Origin: Phoenix dactylifera
Lineage: Eukaryota > Streptophyta > Magnoliopsida > Arecales > Arecaceae
DNA: 64,000 nt
Assembly (NCBI RefSeq): GCF_009389715.1
Contig: NC_052399.1
Coordinates: forward strand, 13,581,646-13,645,645
Direction: 5' to 3'
The stretch's first letter is position 1. Every line of letters begins with the position of its first letter. The position numbers and the translations under genes were made by a program. Below the pieces are notes generated by a model. That model ran no database searches. It saw nothing but the letters and a program-made list of their open reading frames with translations, and was not told where the DNA came from. Shown here piece by piece: positions 3,301 to 48,031 of this stretch.

Positions 3301-4447
3301 ATCATCTCCTTTAGCCCTGTAGAATATAGTGGCACATCAAATTATATAAAATAAGATCGCTAGTAACCTTTAAAAGTAAATATATTCTGAAATAGGTTAA
3401 TCAAAAAAAGGTAATGGATATAAAAAGTATTATTTAGTATATATACATCCATTATTTGTTCGTTCTAGATCACTAAGATGATATAGATTGAGAAATTTTT
3501 CTCATTCAGCTTTTACATAAAGTGTAACAACTCTTCTTAGTTCCATGTAAGTATTCAAGATCTTTCCAGCACACAACCAATATAGGACTAAACGTCGCAG
3601 ATACTATAATATACACCCGTAAAGATCCTCTAATCCTAGATACTAAGATCAACCTATGGCCAGTCTCAAAAGGGCGCATGCTTTAGTATTTCCTAGTCTA
3701 CATTGGCCATGGACTAGGCCAAGTCTATACCATTTGTAATGATTCAGAATTTCACAAAAAACTAGCTGGAAGGCATTATTTGGATTCTTTGACATTGTTT
3801 AAGTATCACAATCAATGTGAGAGTAAATATACGCCCATACAAGTCTTCATGTAAAGTGTATTTATCAAATGTATCCACTACATACAACTATTAATTTAGA
3901 GTTTTTTAGATCACGATTCTTTTGTTATATTACCATTGCAAATACTCTTAGTGGTTATATTTTTTGGGAATAAACAAAAGATATAACCTGAGAAGAAGAG
4001 AGGGAGGGGGGGTGTTGGTGTGCTCGTGTGGCATGTTAGACCTCATTCCCGTTACACAAAGACGAAATTAACCGGATAACAGCTAAATAACATCTGCTAT
4101 GACATAATTACCCTACAATTCAATACGGACCTCAAGACCATCACAAGGGTCAAACCTTTAAACCTTGAAGAAGAGAGAGTACTATCGACTGGAACTAAGA
4201 GAAGGAAGACAAACCGTGAGTATCAATAACAGAGGAGACATTTCACATGAACTTAACACTCAGACATCTATTTTTTTAAATTAAAAAAGGGAAGGAAAAC
4301 ATAGCAATACAATAGAGTAACCAAAAACATGCGCGCGGGGCGAGAGAGAGAGAGAGAGAGAGAGAGCCTTAAGGGGAAGGAGAAGGGGGAGAGGACTCCA
4401 GTTGCATCCCTTGCTGCCAATCCAAATGCCATGTTTGATTGCCCCAT
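331..4447 (-). CDS. Cinnamyl alcohol / mannitol dehydrogenase-like (zinc-dependent medium-chain dehydrogenase), 5 exons
   Basis: This is a zinc-dependent, NADP(H)-using alcohol dehydrogenase of the CAD/mannitol dehydrogenase class, which reduces cinnamaldehydes or oxidises related alcohols in the cytosol. Exons on the minus strand are 4368-4447, 3203-3316, 878-1391, 652-805 and 331-572. The phases join into 367 aa, a normal family length. Visible motifs are CGICHSDL (about residues 41-48, first catalytic zinc ligand), GHE (65-67), structural zinc cysteines 97/100/103/111, Cys160, and the nucleotide-binding GLGGLGH (185-191). The C-terminus reads RFVIDVANT and then a short tail. The start is uncertain: ATGs at 4447 and 4432 fit family N-termini, and one at 4516 is also in frame. 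The intron 1 donor is odd: homology and phase place it at AG|GC running straight into a (CT)n microsatellite, not at a GT. Intron 1 (3317-4367) holds a TRIM fossil. The first-exon sequence (FGLAARDATGVLSPF) suggests a SAD/MTD-type member and not the main lignin CAD. The exact substrate cannot be told from sequence. Confidence 0.9.
3533..3850 (-). mobile_element. TRIM-like LTR retrotransposon fossil in dehydrogenase intron 1
   Basis: Two related terminal segments (about 3533-3630 and 3735-3850) flank a short internal part. They carry the family hallmarks seen elsewhere in the window: a TGTAACAA-type terminus, an 'aggactaaa' block, and next to one repeat a 'tataccatt' that resembles the initiator-Met tRNA primer site read in reverse. 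The element is non-coding, old and degraded. Boundaries are approximate. Confidence 0.5.
4341..4366. repeat. (AG)n microsatellite at the exon 1 / intron 1 junction
   Basis: An AG dinucleotide run directly abuts the end of dehydrogenase exon 1. On the coding strand it reads as (CT)n from the second or third base of the intron, so it forms the 5' splice site context. Confidence 0.9.
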
Positions 4448-28422: not shown

Positions 28423-31392
28423 TCATATAGCTAAAGTCTCGGACCCAGTGGGCTTAGCCCCCTCAATGGAATCAGTCCTCCTTGAGGACTGGTCATCACC
28501 GTCGTCGATGCTCTGGGGGTCTTGCCGCCGGCCAGCTTCAACACTTGATCGGCGGATCTCCTCGATCCGGACCACCACCTCAGATATCGTGGGCCGCCTG
28601 TCAGGATACTGAGCAGCACAGTCTATAGCAAGCTGCAGGAGCTGCACCATCTCTTCCTCCACATTCTGATACCTCAGCAGCTCCAGATCAAACACCTCTG
28701 CCGTCCACTCCTCCCGAACAACCGACTGTACCCACCTTGGCAGGTCGACACCGTCATCATTGAGGAGGGCCTGCGCCGGGGCCTTGCCGGTGAGCAGCTC
28801 CAACAGGAGCACACCAAAGCTGTATACATCAGCCTTCTGGGAGACCTTTCGGGCATCGGTGACCTCAGGAGCACGGTAGCCGGCAACACGGGCAGGGGTG
28901 GAGGTTGGACCTACAAGGTGGGCAAGCCCATGGTCTGAGACTCGGGCTTCATACGATTTGGTTAGCAGAATGTTGGATGACTTGATGTTTCCATGCGAGG
29001 CTGAAGGGCCCGTCGAGTGGATGTACTCGATGCCACGGGCTGCTGCAAGAGCGATTCCGGACCGTGTCTCCCAGTCGAGAGGGGTCCGACCAGATCCCCT
29101 GTTCCCTGCATCATTGTAGAAAGAAATGGAGATCGCAGCAACAGTCCTCAGAATTCCCATAAAAATATCGAGCAATTTCATGCATGTATATATTGCAAGC
29201 AAATACAACAGCTTGTGTAGCTTGAGAAAATGCATATTAAATCATGCAAAGATTGAATGGATTTGCATATAAAAAATGTCGCCAAGAACAATGGTTAAGG
29301 AATGATCCTCATATTCTTCCAAACGGCATATACTCATTACGCATAATCCAATCACCAAATGAGAAGGATTAAAAAGTTCTCCTAAAATCTTCCAATACAT
29401 ACAAACACCTAATTGTCCAGCATACCGTTTCATATATACCCATCATCAAAAATCATGGCTGCAATACAAGATAAAAAGAATGGTATAATTCAGACATAGT
29501 AGAACTAATGTTCTCAAACCTATGATGGAAGAGTGTGTGTGTGTGTGTGTGTGTTATATCTACAAACACGAACTACACACCACCAATATCTAATATTTGT
29601 ATTGAGAACAAAAAGTATTTAACCCTACAGAACACTTCCAGCGAACTTGAGACATGAAGAATGACAGACTCAAGGATGATTCACAATTCAAATCCAATCA
29701 CATGACAACAATACAAGACAGAGATGCAGTAATGTCAAAAATCCTCCAAATCCTTGAAAACATTCTGTCCCCATAAATAAAGCGAGATCGAATTCATAAC
29801 ATACAGCCATCCAAGCAAAAAAATCATCTAAAGTAGCACATTGCCAATTAAAGAACAATTGACCCTTAATCAATTGGAAGAAAACAAAACAAAAAAAAAA
29901 GTCTATAATCACTCACGTTAACCAACCATCCAAATGTAGATTAACAATATCCATTTCATTGGCGAAAAATCAAAACCCCGTCCAAACGGACACACCTTTC
30001 CTTTGCCCACAAAAGGAGTATATAAGTTTCTAGCAAAATTGTAATATATGAAAGAAAACTAAGTAGGGGAAGTGGGAGCTCACCATGCAAGAGGGCGGAG
30101 AGGCTGCCCATGGGCATGTAGTCATAGACAAGAAGCTTCTCGTCCTTGCTGTAGTAGTAGGCCCGCAGGGGCACCAGATTGGGGTGGTCCATCGCACCGA
30201 CGGCCTCGATCTTCTCCCGGAACTCCTTCTCGGGGAGGTTGACGTCCTTGAGCCTCTTCACCGCCACCGTCGTCCCCATCTCCAATACCGCCTTGTACGC
30301 CGTCCCGAACGTTCCCTTCCCTAGTACTTCCGCTGAGGCTCTTAATAGATCCTCCAGATCGAACGGCCGCGCCCCGCTCCCGAAGAATACCAGCTTCTTC
30401 CCCGCCGCCTCCCCCTTCGCCGCCGCCGCCGCCCCTTTCCCGTTCCCTCCCTCCCCGGCACCCATATCCCTCCCCGCCACGGCCGATGCCGGAGTCTCCG
30501 GCGGCTTATCGCTCACAGCCACCGCCTCCAGCGAACTCGTCTTGCCCGCGCCGCTCCTCCTCTTTCGGCAGAGGAGGGCCACCAGGATGAGGATGATTAA
30601 GACTCCGACGGCGGCTCCGATCGCGATGCCGGCGATCGCCCCGCCGGAGAGCTTCTTCTTCTTGTGCGTCGCCTCGGCCGCTCCGCCCGCCGGCCCCTCC
30701 GTCGCCGGCGATGGCGCGATCTCGCCGGGGCAGGGGCCCAGGGGCCCGCCGCAGAGCCCCGTCTTCAAGAACGCCTCGGCCGGCATTTTCCGCAGCTTGG
30801 ACGGAATAGATCCGTTGAGCTGGTTGAATGAGACGTTGAACTGGACCAGGCCCGGAAGGTTCAGCTCCGGGATCTCGCCCGACAGCCGGTTTCTCTCGAG
30901 GTAGAGCGTGCCGAGGTGGGTGAGGTTGTTGAACTCAGGCGAGATGTTACCGGAGAAGTTGTTTCCAGCGAGGTTGAGGCGTATGAGGTTCTGAAGTGAG
31001 AAGAGGAATGCAGGGATCTCCCCGGATAAGCGGTTATCCTGGAGGTAGAGGTTCCGGAGCTGGGAGCACTCGGCGAGGTCCGACGGCAGGCTGCCGGAGA
31101 GTGCATTGAAGCGTAGGCTGAGCGTCCGGAGCGCCGTCAGGTTGCCGACGGTGCCCACCGGTATCTGGCCAATGAGACCCACGGCGGGGAGACGGAGGAC
31201 GGTGACGCGGCCGGCCTCGCAGACCACGCCCCTCCACGAGCACGGCGTCGCCGAGTCGTTCCACCGCAGCACCAGCCGGCCGACGGCGGCGCGGAATGCG
31301 AGGAGCGCCGAGCGGTCCGAGACCAGATCCGGTGCTCCGCCAGGGAGCGAGGAGAGGAGAAAGAAGAGGAGGAGGAAGAAAGGGGAAGCCAT
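28423..31392 (-). CDS. Leucine-rich-repeat receptor-like kinase, probable pseudokinase (RLK902/RKL1-like), 2 exons
   Basis: A plasma-membrane receptor-like kinase of the LRR-III type. Exon 1 (30084-31392) encodes a hydrophobic signal peptide (about 1-20), an LRR N-terminal cap with CSWRGVVC (about 51-58), about five leucine-rich repeats ([13 protein letters not shown] and similar), a Gly/Ala-rich transmembrane helix near 255-280 followed by CRKRR, a low-complexity Ala/Gly juxtamembrane region, and the kinase N-lobe. That lobe has the loop [11 protein letters not shown] and a VAVK lysine at about 379. Exon 2 (28423-29105) encodes the C-lobe. The join G|GG is in phase and the total is 663 aa, normal for the family. 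The catalytic HRD is HGN (474-476) and DFG is DHG (494-496), so phosphotransfer is unlikely. Relatives with HGN are called 'probable inactive'. The gene is strongly GC-rich, unlike its AT-rich surroundings. The signal peptide and repeats suggest apoplastic ligand sensing; the ligand is unknown. Confidence 0.95.
29533..29552. repeat. (GT)n microsatellite
   Basis: A short GT run in the single intron (29106-30083) of the receptor kinase gene. That intron holds nothing else recognisable. Confidence 0.85.
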
Positions 31393-34543: not shown

Positions 34544-35189
34544 GGTGGTGGCTGCAGTTTCTTGGTCAATGGAAAGAAACACACACATAATTACTTATTA
34601 AAAATCAATGAAAAATAAAAAGCAAAAAAAAGATAATTTGGATTAGAAATCAATTATCGTATTTAAATATAGTATTGGATCTAAACTACAACTCTCGACG
34701 CGCGCTTCGTATTCTCTCACATACATTGCCACCTAGTACATGCATGGCCCAGGATAATCAAGGATAATCAATGAAATGAAAAGAAAAAAAGTACAATATT
34801 CCTATGCGATTTTTTTAGCAAAACAGCATTCACAAGCAAGTTCTCCAGCTGCAAGTGTCCCTTTTGAAAGGGACGAAAAGAGGAAACGTACGATAAATTA
34901 TTTGAATTGAGAAGCAATCTGCTATAGTTTCTGGTTTGATGTAGCTAGCTAACATCTGCTCCATCAAACCAGAGTTCCAAAACTTAAGCGTGACTGCAGG
35001 GTCAACTGCAACATTAAGTTGGTAAGAATGGTTTCACCTGTGTGCTGGAAAATGATGCTATTTTTTTATGTTTATTTTTATTTTTGAAACGGATGTATCA
35101 TATATATCGGATACGAATACATCTAAAAAAACAAAAGATAACAAGTTCCAAATTGTACTAAGTAATCTTCTCTTTCCTAACCTCACGGT

Positions 35190-36773
35190 TAGGGCTGGAA
35201 GTGGGCCGGGCCGGGTCGGGCCAAACCCCTACCCAAGCCCGGCCCGAATTTTTTTCCGGGCTTCGGGCCGGGCCGGGGCCCGAAAAATTTTTAAGGAACA
35301 AGGCCCGAGCCCGGCCCGAGCCCGGCCCGAGCCCATTTGGGCCGGCCCAGTTGGGCCCTAACCTGGGCCGGCCCGTTTGGGCCAGCCCGATCCCTAGCCC
35401 GGCCCAAAAAGGAAAACAAGTCTTTGAACAAGCAAAACAACCTATAATATAAGAAAAAGAAGGCATGCCTACAATGCTGCATCAAAAAGGATAAAGAGAC
35501 TAACCAAGATGTTAGGAAGCTTTACAGTAACTTTCTCTCAGTTTTGGTAGTAAGAAGGGCCACCAAGATGATTTCTTGATTGCTAGATATAGTTAATATG
35601 TGTAGACAAAATCTCAAGAGACTAACCATCTGGAGGAATTCATTCCAGGAATGCACTTTCACTCCAGAGTTAGTGGCAGCATCAATCTGTTCCCTTGTTG
35701 TTGAAGCAAATGAAACAATCGCTGTGATCAGATAGAAGTCAGCAAGATGTCAGCCAAAGACGTTTAAACAACTGGGTTACTGGAGTACACAATATCACTA
35801 TTCAGAACTTTTAATTCACACATTTCAGTCGCTGAGCAGATTTGCAATCGGCAGATAGAATCTGCAAAACGAGAGTTGGTTTAGAGTTCAAGAACAGAAC
35901 ATATGGATATGGTCGAAAAATAATGCTCAATGCCAAAGGAACCAGAATATTGGAAAGAAAGTACTAGATGCTTACTTCTTTCATGTTCTTATCTTGGACA
36001 AAAACAACATCAACTTCAGCATGCTCTAGAATCAAAACAAGAGCTTTCCCACAGCACTCCTCTCCAAATCAACAAGAGCCGGGTAAGACTGTAACTCTGT
36101 AAGAGGGTAAGAGGGAGAGAGAGAGAAGAGAGAAAGATAGAGAGAGAAACCCTAGCACAGTAGCACTCGAAAACAGCAAAATCGGAAGTAGGGAGCCTAA
36201 CCTGAGAGCCGACGACGACGAGCCGACGACGACGACGAGCGGAGAAACCCTAGCACAGTAGCACTCGAAAACCACCACCGACGAGCCTCCCCCGCTCTCG
36301 TCTCGCCTCTGCACTCGACGAGCCGATGACGACGAGCCGACGACGACGACGATGACGAGCCGACACCGAACCGTAGCCGACGACGACGACGATGACGACG
36401 GTCTCTTCCGGCTCCGGGCTGGCCCTCTGCAAATCCCCAAATCGGCAACGGCAAGCAATGAAGCAATGAAGCAAATAGGGAAATCGCGATTCGGCTACAA
36501 AATAGGGCTAACAGTAACAGGTTACTTATGACTTATGGAGTTATGGGAAATCGCTTCGGGCTTGGTTCGGGCTGGCACTGGGCTCGGGCTTGGTCCGGGC
36601 CCGGGCCGGGCCAATGGGAAATCCGAGCCCGGCCCGATTAAAATTTGGGTTTAAGTTCCCAGCCCGAGCCCGGCCCGATACAAATTTGGGCTCAATTTTC
36701 TAGCCCATAGCCCGGCCCGCGGGCGGCCCGGCCCGATGGGCTTCGGGCCGGCCCGAGCCCACTTCCAGCCCTA
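35190..36773. mobile_element. Non-autonomous hAT element carrying a captured host gene fragment (Pack-hAT)
   Basis: A 1584-bp element flanked by the perfect 8-bp duplication CTCACGGT (35182-35189 and 36774-36781). Its terminal inverted repeats are identical for 17 bp, TAGGGCTGGAAGTGGGC. Both subterminal regions (about 35210-35405 and 36550-36760) are packed with GGGCC/GGCCC motifs, as in many hAT elements. It has no transposase. The interior holds a captured acyl-CoA synthetase fragment (35627-36061) and a GA-/GAC-repeat-rich region (36100-36480) with 'gaaaccctagcacagtagc' present twice. Confidence 0.93.
35627..36061 (-). pseudogene. Captured fragment of a long-chain acyl-CoA synthetase gene (LACS1-like), three exons with introns
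   Basis: Three minus-strand exon pieces with splice sites still visible: 35976 to about 36061 (encoding LILEHAEVDVVFVQDKNMKE), 35822-35861 (ILSADCKSAQRLK) and 35627-35721 (IVSFASTTREQIDAATNSG then VKVHSWNEFLQM). They join in phase and in order match the N-terminal part of plant long-chain acyl-CoA synthetases. The parent is probably LACS1-type, from family memory. Because introns are retained, capture was at the DNA level and not through mRNA. The start, AMP-binding motif and C-terminus are absent, so no enzyme can be made. The fragment sits wholly inside the hAT element at 35190-36773. Confidence 0.8.
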
Positions 36774-36781
36774 CTCACGGT

Positions 36782-39700
36782 CTTCCTAGAATAATTAGCT
36801 ACATAAAAGGCTACTCAATCTGCTGTCTCGTTGGTCTTATAATATACGTGTTTTTTATTAAAAAGTAGGTAGATTACAGCCCACGACCTCCTCCTCGCAA
36901 TTTTTTTTTTTTTTTTTTTTTTTTTTTGAACCTTTTCCCAGTTCTTCTGCAGGGTAGCCGGGGGGATGAAAAAGAGAAGCCCGTGGGCTCCAACGCCATA
37001 AACCCAGCTTCACCGGTTCCTATAAAGATGAGGCTCAGGGGTTGGTTGGTTACTTTATTCTTTTTTTCCCGTCTACTCCCAAAGGAGACATTAATGTATT
37101 AATGGTACCATAGGATGCTCTCTCGTGGGATAATAATGATGCAATATGGTCCACCACCGCCTCCACTGTACCATCTGTGCACATGATTCGAGATCATAAC
37201 CATTCACCTGATGGACTCCTTTTTTTGGTTAAGCGGAGTACAAAAAGTCCCAACGATGCATGGTCTCCCACGCCACCTTGTAATTGCAACGTACATCAGT
37301 GCAAGCATCAGAAAAGCTGAGCCCGAGAGTGACATCGCCACTATTACAATACTAATTATTTTTAGAGCCATTATTCTCGATCTGAAGCAAGCTTTTTATG
37401 CATTTCTTATGGTTAATGTAATAATTTAATTGTTTTTTTTAATTTAGTTTTCTGAAAAATTAGAAGCTTATCAACTGATGGAGAGGATACAGAAATCGAT
37501 TCTTCATCTTGTGCGCAACGAACCTGAAATGCGGCAGAAATAGTGCCGACTCTCCTTGAGATTCTCGCATGATCATATCAGGTTCTACGGCTTTTTTTTT
37601 TTTTTTTTTTTTTTTGGGTGGGGGGGGGGGGGGGGGTTGTTTCGCCGAATAAGTTTCGGATAAATTGACAATTTCAATTCGAATCGAATAATTCAACATA
37701 TTCTATAACTGTTGATCAATACCTCATTTGCTAAGCATACAATATCAACAACACTGCATGAACAAACGAAAGACATAGATAACATTGCGACCTAATACCG
37801 TACTAAGCTACTAATTTGCACTATATGAATGTGGTATATGATGTGATGCTTCCTTGATTCACATCATCGCGCATATTGGACACGCATGATAAACACGATT
37901 TACAAGATCTGATCCACATCCTTCCAATTAGCCATGAGCACCTCATCATTGTTGAGCTTGCATGTCGCGAAAAAATCGTAGCAATGCCATTGTTGAGCTT
38001 GCATGTCGCCTTGACTTCCACGCACAAGCCTTGCGTTGGGTGTAATTTTACCTCAACCCATGTATGGAAGGAGATGTCGCACTCACGTGGTGGACCACGG
38101 AAATTTAATAGATTTGCTTTTCTTAAGTGCAGGATGTTCCACCTTACATCGCCGTCACTTTGGGCCCTTGCGGTGGCCCTTATTCTTACCAAAACAAGAA
38201 TGGCCCTTCTCATTTGAAGTTCCAAGGCAAGATAAAAGGTTGGTCCACCAAGATAGATTCCTCTCTCCCTTGTCTTCCCCCTCTCCTCCCCTTGGGTTGG
38301 TCGGGCCTTCCCACTCCTACGCGGTGCGTTCACATATTCGCAGGTCTTCCTCGTCTGAGTCTCGACAATGATCTTTCTACAGATTCACCTATAGAAATTT
38401 TGCTACGACTTGTCCTTCCTCTAAATAATAAAGTCCAGTGGACTTCTCACGACGTCTCCTTCCTCGTCTTCCTCCGCTCGATTCAATTAAATCTAAATAG
38501 ATAATAATTAGGGTCGACAATTCAACGATTTTGCAGCAGTAGGCCATTTGGACCCAACGGCATACGATGATTTTGCAGCATTCATGCGTGATTGGTGCAC
38601 CTGAACCTGTTTAACTTCCTGGTGGTCCAACAAGCTTGACCAAACGACTCCTGCAGGAAAATGAGTAAATTTAAAACCATGGTTCGTAGGCTAAAATTGC
38701 CACTTGAAAGCTGCACCATGTAAAGATCGCAGCCTAACAAGAGTAGCTACTTAGTCATTGTCTCTAAATAGTAATGTGATTGCTTACAAAGCAACCATTT
38801 GTAACTAAAGTGTCATTACTATTCCTAAAACATTATATCTTTGCTATATGTAATCGTAATATAGCATTCGCCTCCATATTTTATACAACTTTGCCATATG
38901 GCAGTTATTTTGCTTGTCAAGATCATTATTCCATTATTGTGCTGGGATTTAACAAGCCAGAAAATGCTGTACCAAAATTAAAAAAAAAAAAGAAGTTGCA
39001 ATCAGAGGAGCTCCATTCTCGAATGGGCATGTATTTAATACGCGTTCGCCAGTACAGGCTAATCCAAAACAAGCTAATCGAGCATTGTACTCTATTATGC
39101 ATGCACCTAAATAAGCTTGCAACACACAGGCCTTCAACTCAAGTCTAAAACAACCAAACTTCCTAAACCGTAACTAGAATGCTAATAAACCAGCCTCGAG
39201 GATGAACTTTGTACTGAGGCGTCCAGCTTTGAATTCAGCCAAATAGTCCTTTATTTCTCTTTTATTTCAAGGCTAAGAAACCTACTAAACATTTTGAGCT
39301 ACTAAACTAAACTGACATCCACAAAAAAAACTCAATGCCAGGCTGCAATAGGCTGCTGGCATTCTGTCTGGCCAATTATCTTATCTCACTAAAGATGGTG
39401 CCAGGGCTTATCGGCTGGTGATCTGTGATCCATTTTTTTTTCTGAAAACAGTCTTCGCTCCATTTCAAACATAGGAGTCCACCACCACAAGAGAAAATAT
39501 CACAGCAACAAACTGCAATTGAGTGCACATAATTGTCATCATCTCATTTTGCTTTAGTTTTCAGTATGTTCGGTGCGTCGATCTCGAGAATTAGCAAATG
39601 TTTCTATTACAAGTAAACCATTATCTCAGTGGTTCCCTGTTTTTGGGAGAATGGAAAAAGGAATTTGACTCCGAGACGAGAGCATAATGGAGAACAGAAT

Positions 39701-44211: not shown

Positions 44212-44838
44212 GGATTTCGCCAGAGGAACCCAAAAATTGGTAGGATAAAAAAGTTTCATTGCAACAAACACGGAAACACCTGCCTTGTCTTTAATATTTG
44301 TGAATACGATGATCATCCAACGAGGTTGCCAACTGGAATTTCTACTCTTTTTTTTGGATTAAGTCCTAAAGTTTATAAGAAATATTTAACCTTTGCTTCA
44401 AGATACTATTTTAAATGACACCATTTTTTTTTATATTGTAAATCCCTTCACAAGTGGCACGTATTGGTACAAGGGATGTCATTATGTAAGAAAATAACTC
44501 ATTGCGCATGCACAAGAACAGGTTGTACAACGTTTTTTTTTTTTTAATGGCAATTATATATCCCATGTAGTTTAGTGATATTTGAATAATAATTAAAAAT
44601 TTTAATAACACAATATAGCTGCAAGTTAGTTTTTATATTAACAATGGTGTTTTTTATAGCCAAGTGAGATAACATATGTAGAGGTGGGCAACGGGCCGTG
44701 CCGGGCCGGCCCGGCCCAGGCCCCCCGGGCCCAAAGACTAAACGGGCCGTGCCTGGCACGGCCCGTCCAGCACGGAAGGCCAGCCCGGCCCGGCCCCAGG
44801 CCCCTCTATTGGTGGGCCGGGCCGGGCACGGCACGCCA

Positions 44839-44969
44839 CGGGCCGTGCCAGGCACGGCCCGTAACGGGCGCAAACGGGCCGTGCCAGGCACGGCCCGCAA
44901 CGTCTCCAAACGGGCCGTGCCTGGCACGGCCCGTAACGGCTCCAGACGGGCCGTGCCAGGCACGGCCAG
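44839..44969. repeat. 36-bp tandem array of 23-bp palindromes (hAT subterminal)
   Basis: Four units start at 44839, 44875, 44911 and 44947. Each contains CGGGCCGTGCC, one central base, then its reverse complement. The last unit is imperfect at its end. A fifth copy lies at 44743-44765. Known hAT biology suggests transposase-binding sites. Confidence 0.9.
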
Positions 44970-45097
44970 TCTGGAGAGGGGGGAGGAAAATAGCCGTTTC
45001 CAACGGCTATTTTCGTGAAAATGACCCTTTTACCCCTCCCAACAGTCCAATAACGGCTGAATTGAGGGGTATTTTGGGAAAAAAAATTTTGGGCTTC

Positions 45098-45105
45098 TAT
45101 AAATA
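45098..45105 (+). promoter_or_regulatory. TATA box of the hAT transposase gene
   Basis: TATAAATA lies 268 bp before the ATG and directly after the subterminal array and an AT-rich run. This is the expected position for the element's own promoter. Confidence 0.6.
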
Positions 45106-45373
45106 GCCCATTCCTCCCTCATTCTCACCACACCAAACCTCTCATTCTCTCCTTCTCTACTGCTATTATTTCTCTCTTCTAAAGTGCTCTTCTAGCAATT
45201 TAATTTTTAGTTTGTTCAAGTGCTACACAAGAGGAGGTTCCTGTTGAGAAGAGAAGGTCGCTTCTGTTGAGAGCACAAGAAGAAGCTCGGAATCTCGGCT
45301 CTGCCTCTGCCCTCCGACCCTCTACTCAATTCCTCCTTGCGGTTAGTTTTTATTTTTTGAATTAATCATAGAT

Positions 45374-47398
45374 ATGTCATCTTTTGAGGAAAGTCAGTTT
45401 GGCATTCCTGTTTCTGAGGGAGAAGAAACTAATCCCCAACCCCCTGTTCCTAGTTCCTCTAGAACTGGTGAACCGAGTGAAGGTCAAACCTCTTCTCGTA
45501 AGAGGACTAGTACTGTATGGAATGAATTTGATAGAGTTATGGTTGAGGGAGTCTGGAAAGCTAAATGTAAAAAATGTGCCAAACTTTATAGTTGTAGTAG
45601 TAGTGGGGGAACAGGGCATTTAAAAAGACATCAAGAGAGTCATAGGATGCATGATTCTCATGCTCAAACTCAAAGTACCCTTAATATACAAGGGGGATTA
45701 CTTGTAGGTAATTTTGCATATAATCATGAAAATCAAAGAAAAGCACTTGTAAAATGGATAGTTAAGGATGAATTACCTTTTAGTTTATGTGAATCTTTTA
45801 ATTTTGAAGAATATGTTCAATTAAACCTACAACCTGCTTACAAAAGAACTAGTAGGCGTACATTTAGAAGAGTAGCTATGACCAATTTTTTAGCAATGAA
45901 ACAAAATTTAATTGAAACACTTTCTACTTTAAATGTAAAAATTTCATTAACTTCTGATATTTGGTCAGCATCTGTAGGTAGTAATTGTTTTATTGCCATT
46001 ACTGCTCATTATATTGATAATGATTGGCAATTAAATAAACGTATTCTTGCTTTTCGTACTTTTGATTTTCCACATTCTGGGCAACAAATTTCAAATATAA
46101 TTTATCAAACTGCATGTTCATATAATATTAATGATAAAATTATGTCTATTACTTTTGATAATGCATCTAATAATAATTTTGCTGTTGTATTATTAAAAGA
46201 CTCATTGCATCCCATATTAGATGGAAATTTACTGCATATTAGATGTGTATGTCATATCTTAAATCTTTCTGTTCAAGCTGGCATGGGCATGATTCAAGAT
46301 GTGATTTCAAAAATTAGAAATGCAGTTTCTTTTATTCATGCTTCTAGATCAAGACTTCAAGAATTTAAGGAATTATGCATAAATCATGGTAAACGTTTTA
46401 AAAAATTTAAACTTGATGTAATTACTCGTTGGAACTCCACATATAGCATGATACATGATGCATACCCATATAAAAATTTATTAAGTGCATATATTAATGA
46501 TCGTGGATTAGGATTTACATTGACTGAAACTGATTGGAATAAAGGAAAAATTTTGGAAGATTTTTTGCTTAGTTTTTATAATGCTACCAATGTTCTTTCT
46601 GGTATTTATTACCCTACTGCATGTTCATTTTTACAACAAGCATATATAATTAGTCAAAAATTTGCAGAACATAGATATGATGATGTTTTAATGCCTATTA
46701 TTGACCTAATGGAATCTAAATGGAATGAGTATTGGGACAGGATATGTCCTATGCATAACTTAGCTGCTGTATTTGATCCTAGAGTTAAATTAAATGGCGT
46801 GCTAATTTTACTTGATGCATACTCTGAAAATATGAATCAAGATGCTGAATCTGCTAAAGATGAGGTAAAAAAACTTCTTTATGATATTTATGCTATATAT
46901 GATGAAAAAATTCGTGGATCTAGAACACAAATACAAACCTCTATTTCTCCTTCTAGTAGTTCTCGTTCGTCATCTATTTTTTCATTCATTGCACAGAGAA
47001 GATACACACATGCTTCAAGTTCCTCTTCATCTTCTTCATCTTTAAGTAGTGAACTAGAATTTTATTTACGAAATGATCTTCATTCTGCATATGATGAAAA
47101 TCAAATAGAGAATCTAGATGTATTATCTTGGTGGAAGAGTGTTAGAAATCAATATCCTGTTATGTCTGCAATTGCACGCGATATTTTAGCTGTGCCGATG
47201 TCCACGGTAGCATCGGAATCCGCTTTTAGTGCAGGTCGGCGTGTTCTTGACGAAAAGAGAAGTAGGATGACGGGCGAAACGGTGGAGATGCTTCTCTGCT
47301 TCAAGGATTGGCTGGATGCTGAGGCAAGACTTCAAGATAAAGGTAGACATAATACAACATCCTCTGATGATGATGATACAAACACTACTGAAGACTGA
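45374..47398 (+). CDS. hAT transposase, 674 aa, intact
   Basis: Catalyses cut-and-paste transposition of the surrounding element, and possibly of non-autonomous relatives, in the nucleus. The N-terminal BED zinc finger (about residues 49-92) reads VWNEFDRVMVEGVWKAKCKK then a cysteine pair (CKKC) and paired histidines (HLKRHQESH). The RNase-H-like catalytic core shows the first Asp in LTSDIWSA, the second in ITFDNASNN, then RWNSTY. The hATC dimerisation domain near the C-terminus has WWKSVRNQYPVMSAIARDIL, then AVPMSTVASESAFSAGRR with the likely third acidic residue, then RSRM. The length is typical for plant hAT. The start at 45374 is the first ATG of the frame, after the TATA box and a 5' leader. 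Codon use is AT-rich, unlike the GC-rich element ends. The C-terminal tail ends in a D/T-rich stretch next to 'gaagact' tandem copies. Confidence 0.96.
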   Translation: MSSFEESQFGIPVSEGEETNPQPPVPSSSRTGEPSEGQTSSRKRTSTVWNEFDRVMVEGVWKAKCKKCAKLYSCSSSGGTGHLKRHQESHRMHDSHAQTQSTLNIQGGLLVGNFAYNHENQRKALVKWIVKDELPFSLCESFNFEEYVQLNLQPAYKRTSRRTFRRVAMTNFLAMKQNLIETLSTLNVKISLTSDIWSASVGSNCFIAITAHYIDNDWQLNKRILAFRTFDFPHSGQQISNIIYQTACSYNINDKIMSITFDNASNNNFAVVLLKDSLHPILDGNLLHIRCVCHILNLSVQAGMGMIQDVISKIRNAVSFIHASRSRLQEFKELCINHGKRFKKFKLDVITRWNSTYSMIHDAYPYKNLLSAYINDRGLGFTLTETDWNKGKILEDFLLSFYNATNVLSGIYYPTACSFLQQAYIISQKFAEHRYDDVLMPIIDLMESKWNEYWDRICPMHNLAAVFDPRVKLNGVLILLDAYSENMNQDAESAKDEVKKLLYDIYAIYDEKIRGSRTQIQTSISPSSSSRSSSIFSFIAQRRYTHASSSSSSSSSLSSELEFYLRNDLHSAYDENQIENLDVLSWWKSVRNQYPVMSAIARDILAVPMSTVASESAFSAGRRVLDEKRSRMTGETVEMLLCFKDWLDAEARLQDKGRHNTTSSDDDDTNTTED

Positions 47399-47484
47399 AG
47401 ACTGAAGACTGAAGACTGAATACTGATTCACTGAATCACTGATGATTAGTAAGATTTCTTAATTTTTTATAATTGTACATTTTT

Positions 47485-47575
47485 ATTGTATTCTGGAGGT
47501 CAGACCAAGGTCCAAACCTCGGCCCTTTCTTAGTTTCTTATTGTATTCTAGAGGTCAGACCAAGGTCCAAACCTC
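47485..47575. repeat. 55-bp-period tandem duplication in the transposase 3' region
   Basis: 'ggtcagaccaaggtccaaac' occurs in two copies, each preceded by 'attgtattct' (starting at 47485 and 47540) with one difference. It lies before the AATAAA at 47603. Confidence 0.9.
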
Positions 47576-48031
47576 CCTTCATGTACCATTTTGATTTAAA
47601 TTAATAAACTGGTAGGGGTCTATGCCAAACCCCCCACCATTAAGGTGGCTTTATATTCATAAATCATAAATTCTTAGTGTTCAATATTTATTAATTTATT
47701 AAAAAAATTTATGAAGCATTAATTTTTATCGGGCCGAGCCGGGCCCAGGCCCGGACCGTGCCAGGCCCGCGTGCCAGCCCGGCCCAGGCCCTTATGGGCC
47801 GTGCCGTGCTGGCCCGCGGGCCGTGCCGTGCTTGGCCCGCGGGCCTAGACCGGGCCGTGCCGGCCCAGGCCCGAAGCGGGCCGTGCCAGCACGGCCCGCT
47901 TGCCAGGACCCTCTAGCCCAGCACGGCCCTCTCAAAGGGGCCGTGCCAGGCACGGCCCGGCACTGTAGCTGGCGGGCCGTGCCGTGCCGGGCCGTGGGCG
48001 GCCCGGCCCAGTGCCCATCTCTAAACATATG

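Follow-up and report, generated by a model that had tools for sequence, protein, structure and literature searches.

Phoenix dactylifera Pack-hAT with acyl-CoA synthetase exons and its probable descent from transposase-bearing relatives

The element at positions 35190-36773 of the window (the whole 64,000-nucleotide stretch of Phoenix dactylifera DNA that was analysed) is a complete non-autonomous hAT transposon of 1,584 bp, that is, a Pack-hAT, and contains part of an acyl-CoA synthetase (LACS) gene. The original prediction of a Pack-hAT with acyl-CoA synthetase exons is borne out by a parent gene, in which the full 754-bp stretch captured by the family lies at C3:5883374-5884127, by sister copies inserted independently elsewhere in the assembly, two of them with open transposase frames, and by related empty sites. 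Our explanation of its history, to which we assign a probability of roughly nine in ten, is that the element was moved by a transposase supplied in trans, and that it descends from a transposase-bearing relative which would have taken up the gene piece during repair, spread it by transposition, and given rise to short forms through internal loss and recombination.

Structure and insertion site of the element

Both ends carry the perfect 17-bp terminal inverted repeat (TIR) TAGGGCTGGAAGTGGGC, and the 8-bp sequence CTCACGGT stands in exact copies on either side of the element, at 35182-35189 and 36774-36781, which confirms the exact duplication and the identical inverted termini claimed earlier; an 8-bp target site duplication (TSD) and short TIRs are features of the hAT superfamily. 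A third copy of CTCACGGT lies at 4213-4220 on the opposite strand. With up to three mismatches, TAGGGCTGGAAGTGGGC has four matches in the window against 0.10 expected, the two that are not ends of the element having three mismatches. In the 773-Mb assembly, the exact 17-mer was counted 151 times in forward and 146 times in reverse orientation (297 exact termini), and the reversed 17-mer, taken as a control, occurs 0 times in either orientation. No transposase was found in the element by tblastn with six family transposases at E values up to 1. The features of the element are as follows:

35182..35189, no strand: left TSD CTCACGGT; one copy only in each of the 5 related empty sites that were fetched
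35190..35206, plus: left TIR, 17 bp, perfect; from terminus comparison and genome-wide 17-mer count
35190..35389, no strand: left end of the hAT (element 1-200), where G+C-rich subterminal repeats lie; 93-98% identical to the LACS-free elements C1, C231, C3b and C4b
35415..35495, minus: enolase-locus fragment, 81 bp; 97.5% identical to L041:1402-1482 (C17)
35507..36028, minus: captured acyl-CoA synthetase segment, 522 bp; 98.7% identical to L009:4375-4895 (C3:5883374-5883894)
35627..35721, minus: LACS exon 3 of the fragment; from parent comparison and splice sites
35822..35861, minus: LACS exon 2 of the fragment; from parent comparison and splice sites
35976..36028, minus: LACS exon 1 of the fragment, only the 3' 53 bp of the parent's 78-bp exon; from parent comparison
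36026..36028, no strand: fusion of LACS and hAT right end with a 3-bp overlap (CTA on plus); from element comparison
36026..36773, minus: hAT-family right end, taken as the 5' (leader) side in view of the transposase orientation
36757..36773, minus: right TIR, 17 bp, perfect; from terminus comparison and genome-wide 17-mer count
36774..36781, no strand: right TSD CTCACGGT; single target in all 5 of the related empty sites fetched

Over longer matches, the right end is 84-89% identical to LACS-free elements, and 98% identical to the copy C570. It also contains an exact 31-bp duplication (36144-36174 repeated at 36242-36272) and GAC-rich repeats.

The two flanks of the element were joined and searched against the same assembly, and 40 of 219 first-look candidates were scored. 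Two of these matches are the element locus itself and 38 lie elsewhere; all but one of the latter (37 of 38) cross the joint, at 73-78% identity, the single exception being C18:5877454, where the match ends at the joint. Five of the 37 joint-crossing sites were fetched; all five run on without a break, and each shows one target and lacks an insert. The element therefore sits in a dispersed repeat whose other copies serve as empty sites; these related empty sites are copies of the flanking repeat in one assembly, as distinct from the orthologous site in a relative, and on that scale the 8-bp repeats conform to a target duplication. The acyl-CoA synthetase exons do not continue beyond the element, since its flanks match the dispersed repeat and not LACS. 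This host repeat is about 200 bp long and spans approximately 35060-35189 and 36782-36854.

Pairing of plus and minus termini was examined for the first 100 listed of the 297 exact 17-mer places, among which 70 form 35 pairs and 30 are unpaired. Twenty-three pairs span 0.67-1.64 kb and 12 span 4.6-27 kb, the wide pairs not necessarily being single elements; four of these 12 were covered in full by the analysis. An exact 8-bp TSD is present in 16 of 18 elements with both ends paired, the exceptions being L019 (8 mismatches) and L025 (2 mismatches). At L019 (C11:14030224-14060399), four similar short family members stand about 9.6 kb apart, a spacing that may reflect tandem duplication of a larger unit; the one that was read is without a matching TSD.

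A second complete hAT, of a different family, occupies 44679-48023 of the window (3,345 bp), with AACATATG as TSD on both sides, imperfect termini (TAGAGGTGGGCA/TAGAGATGGGCA) and an open 674-aa transposase frame at 45374-47398. It was considered as a source for the Pack-hAT and rejected, its transposase being only 33% identical to that of the Pack family and its termini different. About 3.8 kb from the Pack-hAT, the minus strand at 28423-31392 carries what we take, from its translation, to be a leucine-rich-repeat receptor-kinase-like gene.

Captured acyl-CoA synthetase segment and its copies

The captured segment comprises two whole exons and part of a third, together with two introns and part of a third. 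GT donors are found at all three exons and AG acceptors at 35822-35861 and 35627-35721, and the three exons, when spliced, are open in a single frame. The claim of three in-frame exon pieces with introns is upheld in this respect, and corrected at its right border: 36029-36061, considered as LACS exon, is hAT sequence matching the LACS-free element C1, and the first exon is reduced to its last 53 bp. From 36029 onward, the sequence of the element is common to LACS-free elements. Because the introns were kept, the source was DNA, and RNA-mediated capture is ruled out. The 81-bp enolase-locus piece contains no recognised exon; in L041, an Enolase_C exon is located some 0.6 kb downstream of it.

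The search for a parent gene, advised at the outset, led to the C3 locus, which matches the segment at 98.7% over exons and introns. Further acyl-CoA synthetase-like exons follow there in order on the minus strand, as judged by eye, and the three parent exons that were tested match Pfam AMP-binding, one of them below the curated cut-off. A search for other copies with the same termini and segment was likewise productive. The 522-bp segment is present at six places (all six candidates were scored), namely the window, C570, C11, C10, C19, where only 86 bp are left, and the parent; a query with the 754-bp parental stretch returned the same six, the full length being present only in C3, C11 and C10. 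Identity to the parent is 98.7-99.1% among the captured copies.

C11 and C10 are elements of 5,438 bp, 99.8% alike, each of which combines the 754-bp capture with an open frame of 660 codons, and their TSDs are CTAAGGAT and CTCCCCGA, respectively. The window element is 98% identical to C570, and the TSDs of the two differ (CTCACGGT versus GTTATTTC), so that one and the same capture has been mobilised as a unit. Over 521 parental bases, three differences from the parent, all intronic, are common to the window element, C570, C11 and C10, and the window element and C570 have one further related small insertion in the segment. Differences held in common in this way point to one capture, preceding internal loss and recombination. 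The 1-kb flanks of the five LACS-bearing loci are unrelated, except for those of C19 and one of C570, which have a repeat in common at 68-71% identity. The C19 derivative (L021) lies in repeated sequence, its two flanks being 76-81% alike. Palms have a substitution rate of about 2.6e-9 per site per year, with which 7 differences in 754 would place the capture, only roughly, at 2 million years ago.

The short forms differ in their composition. In the C19 element, positions 1-418 and 3985-5438 of C11 are joined, the two parts overlapping by 5 bp. The window form resembles C11 up to position 839 (97-98%) and then continues, after a 3-bp overlap, as the right end of a different subfamily (89%). 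A C11-like left part joined to a right part of another subfamily leads us to read the short form as a recombinant descendant and not as the capturer; the view that the window element itself captured the exons gives way to one in which it is a shortened derivative of a transposase-bearing capturer. C570 aside, the right half of the window element is at most 89% identical to the scored elements, and the left half 97-98% identical to C11 and C10. Among the candidates scored (40 of 424), none was a full-size progenitor with both LACS and the window-type right end, and in such a sample one could be missed.

Transposase-bearing relatives and orientation of the captured pieces

The 660-codon frame of C11 contains the domains zf-BED (PF02892), hAT RNase-H-like (PF14372) and Dimer_Tnp_hAT (PF05699). 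Among the seven long copies with frames listed, five have this frame uninterrupted, and it is interrupted in C1 and C231. In C11 and C10 the LACS exons share the strand of the transposase frame (minus as drawn), on which the remaining three uninterrupted frames also lie; the LACS exons are therefore sense to the native direction. The fragment is antisense only to a hypothetical rightward transcript, and the proposal that it is an antisense piece is not supported as the default; a transcript initiated at the element's right end would include these exons in sense.

In other copies, the capture slot between the 3' end of the transposase and the left terminus holds different host pieces. C1563 contains pieces of the enolase locus (98.5%) and of a C6 locus (98%), two pieces of phospholipase D, namely an exon at 97.3% (matching PLD_C in Pfam and phospholipase D alpha 1 in PDB) and a scrap of 29 bp, and pieces of two further genes, one CBS-like (98.2%) and the other UVRAG-like (94.6% and 83.6%); the right end of this element was not found. 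Its CBS/UVRAG-like capture recurs at 100% in C2004:3623-4191, C351:89170-89738, C2:5701704-5702272 and C182:290951-291519. C256 and C13 hold pieces of the enolase locus, of the C6 locus and of a phospholipase D intron, a short UVRAG-like piece, and an exon that is named as aldo-keto reductase from its own sequence (Pfam E 4e-7), and C1 and C4b hold 1.1 kb of the UVRAG-like locus at 96%. The putative UVRAG name comes from a PDB match with E 0.0014, with no Pfam match; its donor was put at C3 from an 84-bp match, a second locus in C12 standing at 90%, and the C3 locus is 96% identical to the C1 element over 1.1 kb. The putative CBS name comes from a Pfam match with E 0.21, below the cut-off, and from two joined pieces with a PDB E of about 1e-6; Pfam and NCBIfam gave no match for the CBS-like donor locus. 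Pfam and NCBIfam gave no identification for the C6 locus, one NCBIfam match lying far below cut-off and a PDB match having E 0.17. The C6-derived piece of C1563 lacks 159 bp, for which removal of an intron was considered and rejected; since no GT...AG fits within the 3-bp overlap and the stretch is kept in C256 and C13, the loss is read as a deletion.

All six donors with some protein support (LACS, enolase, phospholipase D, aldo-keto reductase, CBS and UVRAG-like, the support being weak for the last two) are in transposase sense, as is the C6 locus, judged from its longest frame. A two-sided binomial test gives a p of 0.03 for the six, 0.016 for the seven and 0.125 for the four with Pfam matches above the curated cut-off, and because the test was picked after the data had been seen, the sense bias is suggestive only. 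A wider reading, in which the family would be a serial collector of gene fragments with its transposase kept, and in which template-switching repair would have filled a single slot with pieces of at least seven host loci, only or mostly in transposase sense, is tentative, and we regard it as somewhat doubtful. If true, it would imply selection against antisense pieces, or copying tied to the direction of transcription.

The captured exons might also act on their parent, if element RNA containing them silenced the gene, whether as antisense or through small RNA derived from the sense strand. The close identity of the copies to the parent, with exon borders intact, agrees with this, and the position of the fragment on the transposase strand, downstream of the leader side, makes a sense chimeric transcript plausible. 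Silencing by antisense is opposed by the same orientation, however, and no frame was found that leads from the leader into the LACS exons, the frame at 36069-36458 meeting a stop before them, so that a translated leader-LACS fusion is not expected. We consider such an activity unlikely.

Proposed origin and significance

In the preferred explanation, the element moves by cut-and-paste with transposase provided in trans by full-size family relatives; common termini and different target duplications are the reason for proposing mobilisation by a C11-type transposase. Repair of a break or gap inside a transposase-bearing ancestor, with host genes as template, would first have placed the 754-bp LACS stretch downstream of the transposase, between the enolase-locus and UVRAG-like pieces; the order of the captures is one that we infer. 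The resulting 5.4-kb form would then have transposed (C11, C10), and short forms would have arisen by internal loss, C19 through deletion and the window/C570 form through fusion of the left 0.85 kb with a right end that belongs to another subfamily, the latter form now being at two places with different target duplications. Overlaps of 3-5 bp are found between LACS and the right end in the window, at the C19 deletion, between CBS and UVRAG and at the internal C6 deletion in C1563, and between enolase and C6 in C256, these short overlaps having been scored without a chance control; other junctions contain 2-28 bp of unmatched filler. Such junctions, together with separate donors and the keeping of introns, fit template-switching repair synthesis better than tandem insertion and re-mobilisation of adjacent elements. 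The excerpted text of PMC8903248 puts the latter model forward for Pack-TYPE elements in every DNA superfamily. Against it, no family end (TIR with at most two mismatches) was found in 29.8 kb around the C3 parent, and several separate donors meet at junctions with filler or short overlaps; as the route by which LACS entered this family, it appears improbable. That the exons are a decayed LACS duplicate later hit by a hAT insertion is refuted, as they lie inside the TIRs of four elements that each have a different TSD (a fifth element retaining an 86-bp remnant) and have the same boundary beside hAT and enolase sequence in the copies, and as the joined flanks match other copies of a repeat and not LACS; nothing was found in favour of this reading.

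Gene capture by hAT elements is less exceptional than first supposed, as the excerpts of four papers indicate (PMC2528002, PMC3260210, PMC8903248, PMC8277862); PMC3260210 itself calls it rare for hAT. The grapevine family Hatvine-6 (PMC2528002, in the text excerpted) has a common transposase sequence and TIRs with variable regions matching genic exons and introns. The present family resembles it in these respects, by description and not by sequence kinship, and differs from that account in that its history is traced from transposase-bearing copies to short Pack derivatives and its protein-supported donors share one orientation. Pack-hATs are named in maize and rice in the excerpt of PMC8903248, and share with the window element the non-autonomous hAT structure, the 8-bp TSD and the captured coding DNA; that paper favours tandem insertion, whereas repair synthesis is the mechanism proposed here, and its pipeline, as excerpted, calls any transposase-matching element autonomous, so that copies of the C11/C10 type would fall outside its Pack class. 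In maize, the excerpt of PMC3260210 reports gene fragments in two Ds2 and nine Ds-l4 elements, among which Ds2-22 and Ds-l4 are like the present case in superfamily, in filler replacing internal DNA and in an intron-bearing gene piece from another chromosome; here, unlike in those captures, copies with an open transposase frame also carry the piece. Animal Pack-TIRs, with 208 hAT-associated cases in the excerpt of PMC8277862, including Pack-hAT-N8_XT, offer further hAT captures with breakpoint microhomology and a few multicopy cases with distinct TSDs; the present family differs from those described in belonging to a plant, in having several donors per element and in keeping an open transposase frame in the same copies. 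Among the literature matches listed, in a search with most subscription journals outside its scope, there was no published report of this hAT family. Pack-hATs and transposase-bearing hATs with gene fragments are already published, and what is new here is a family member with a well-resolved history.

One genome thus documents a path from transposase-bearing hATs that acquired host DNA to the short Pack-hATs by which this DNA is spread, with both the parent gene and related empty sites identified. Surveys that drop transposase-positive copies can miss the very copies in which capture happens, and the uniform sense orientation of the captured pieces is a concrete, testable pattern.
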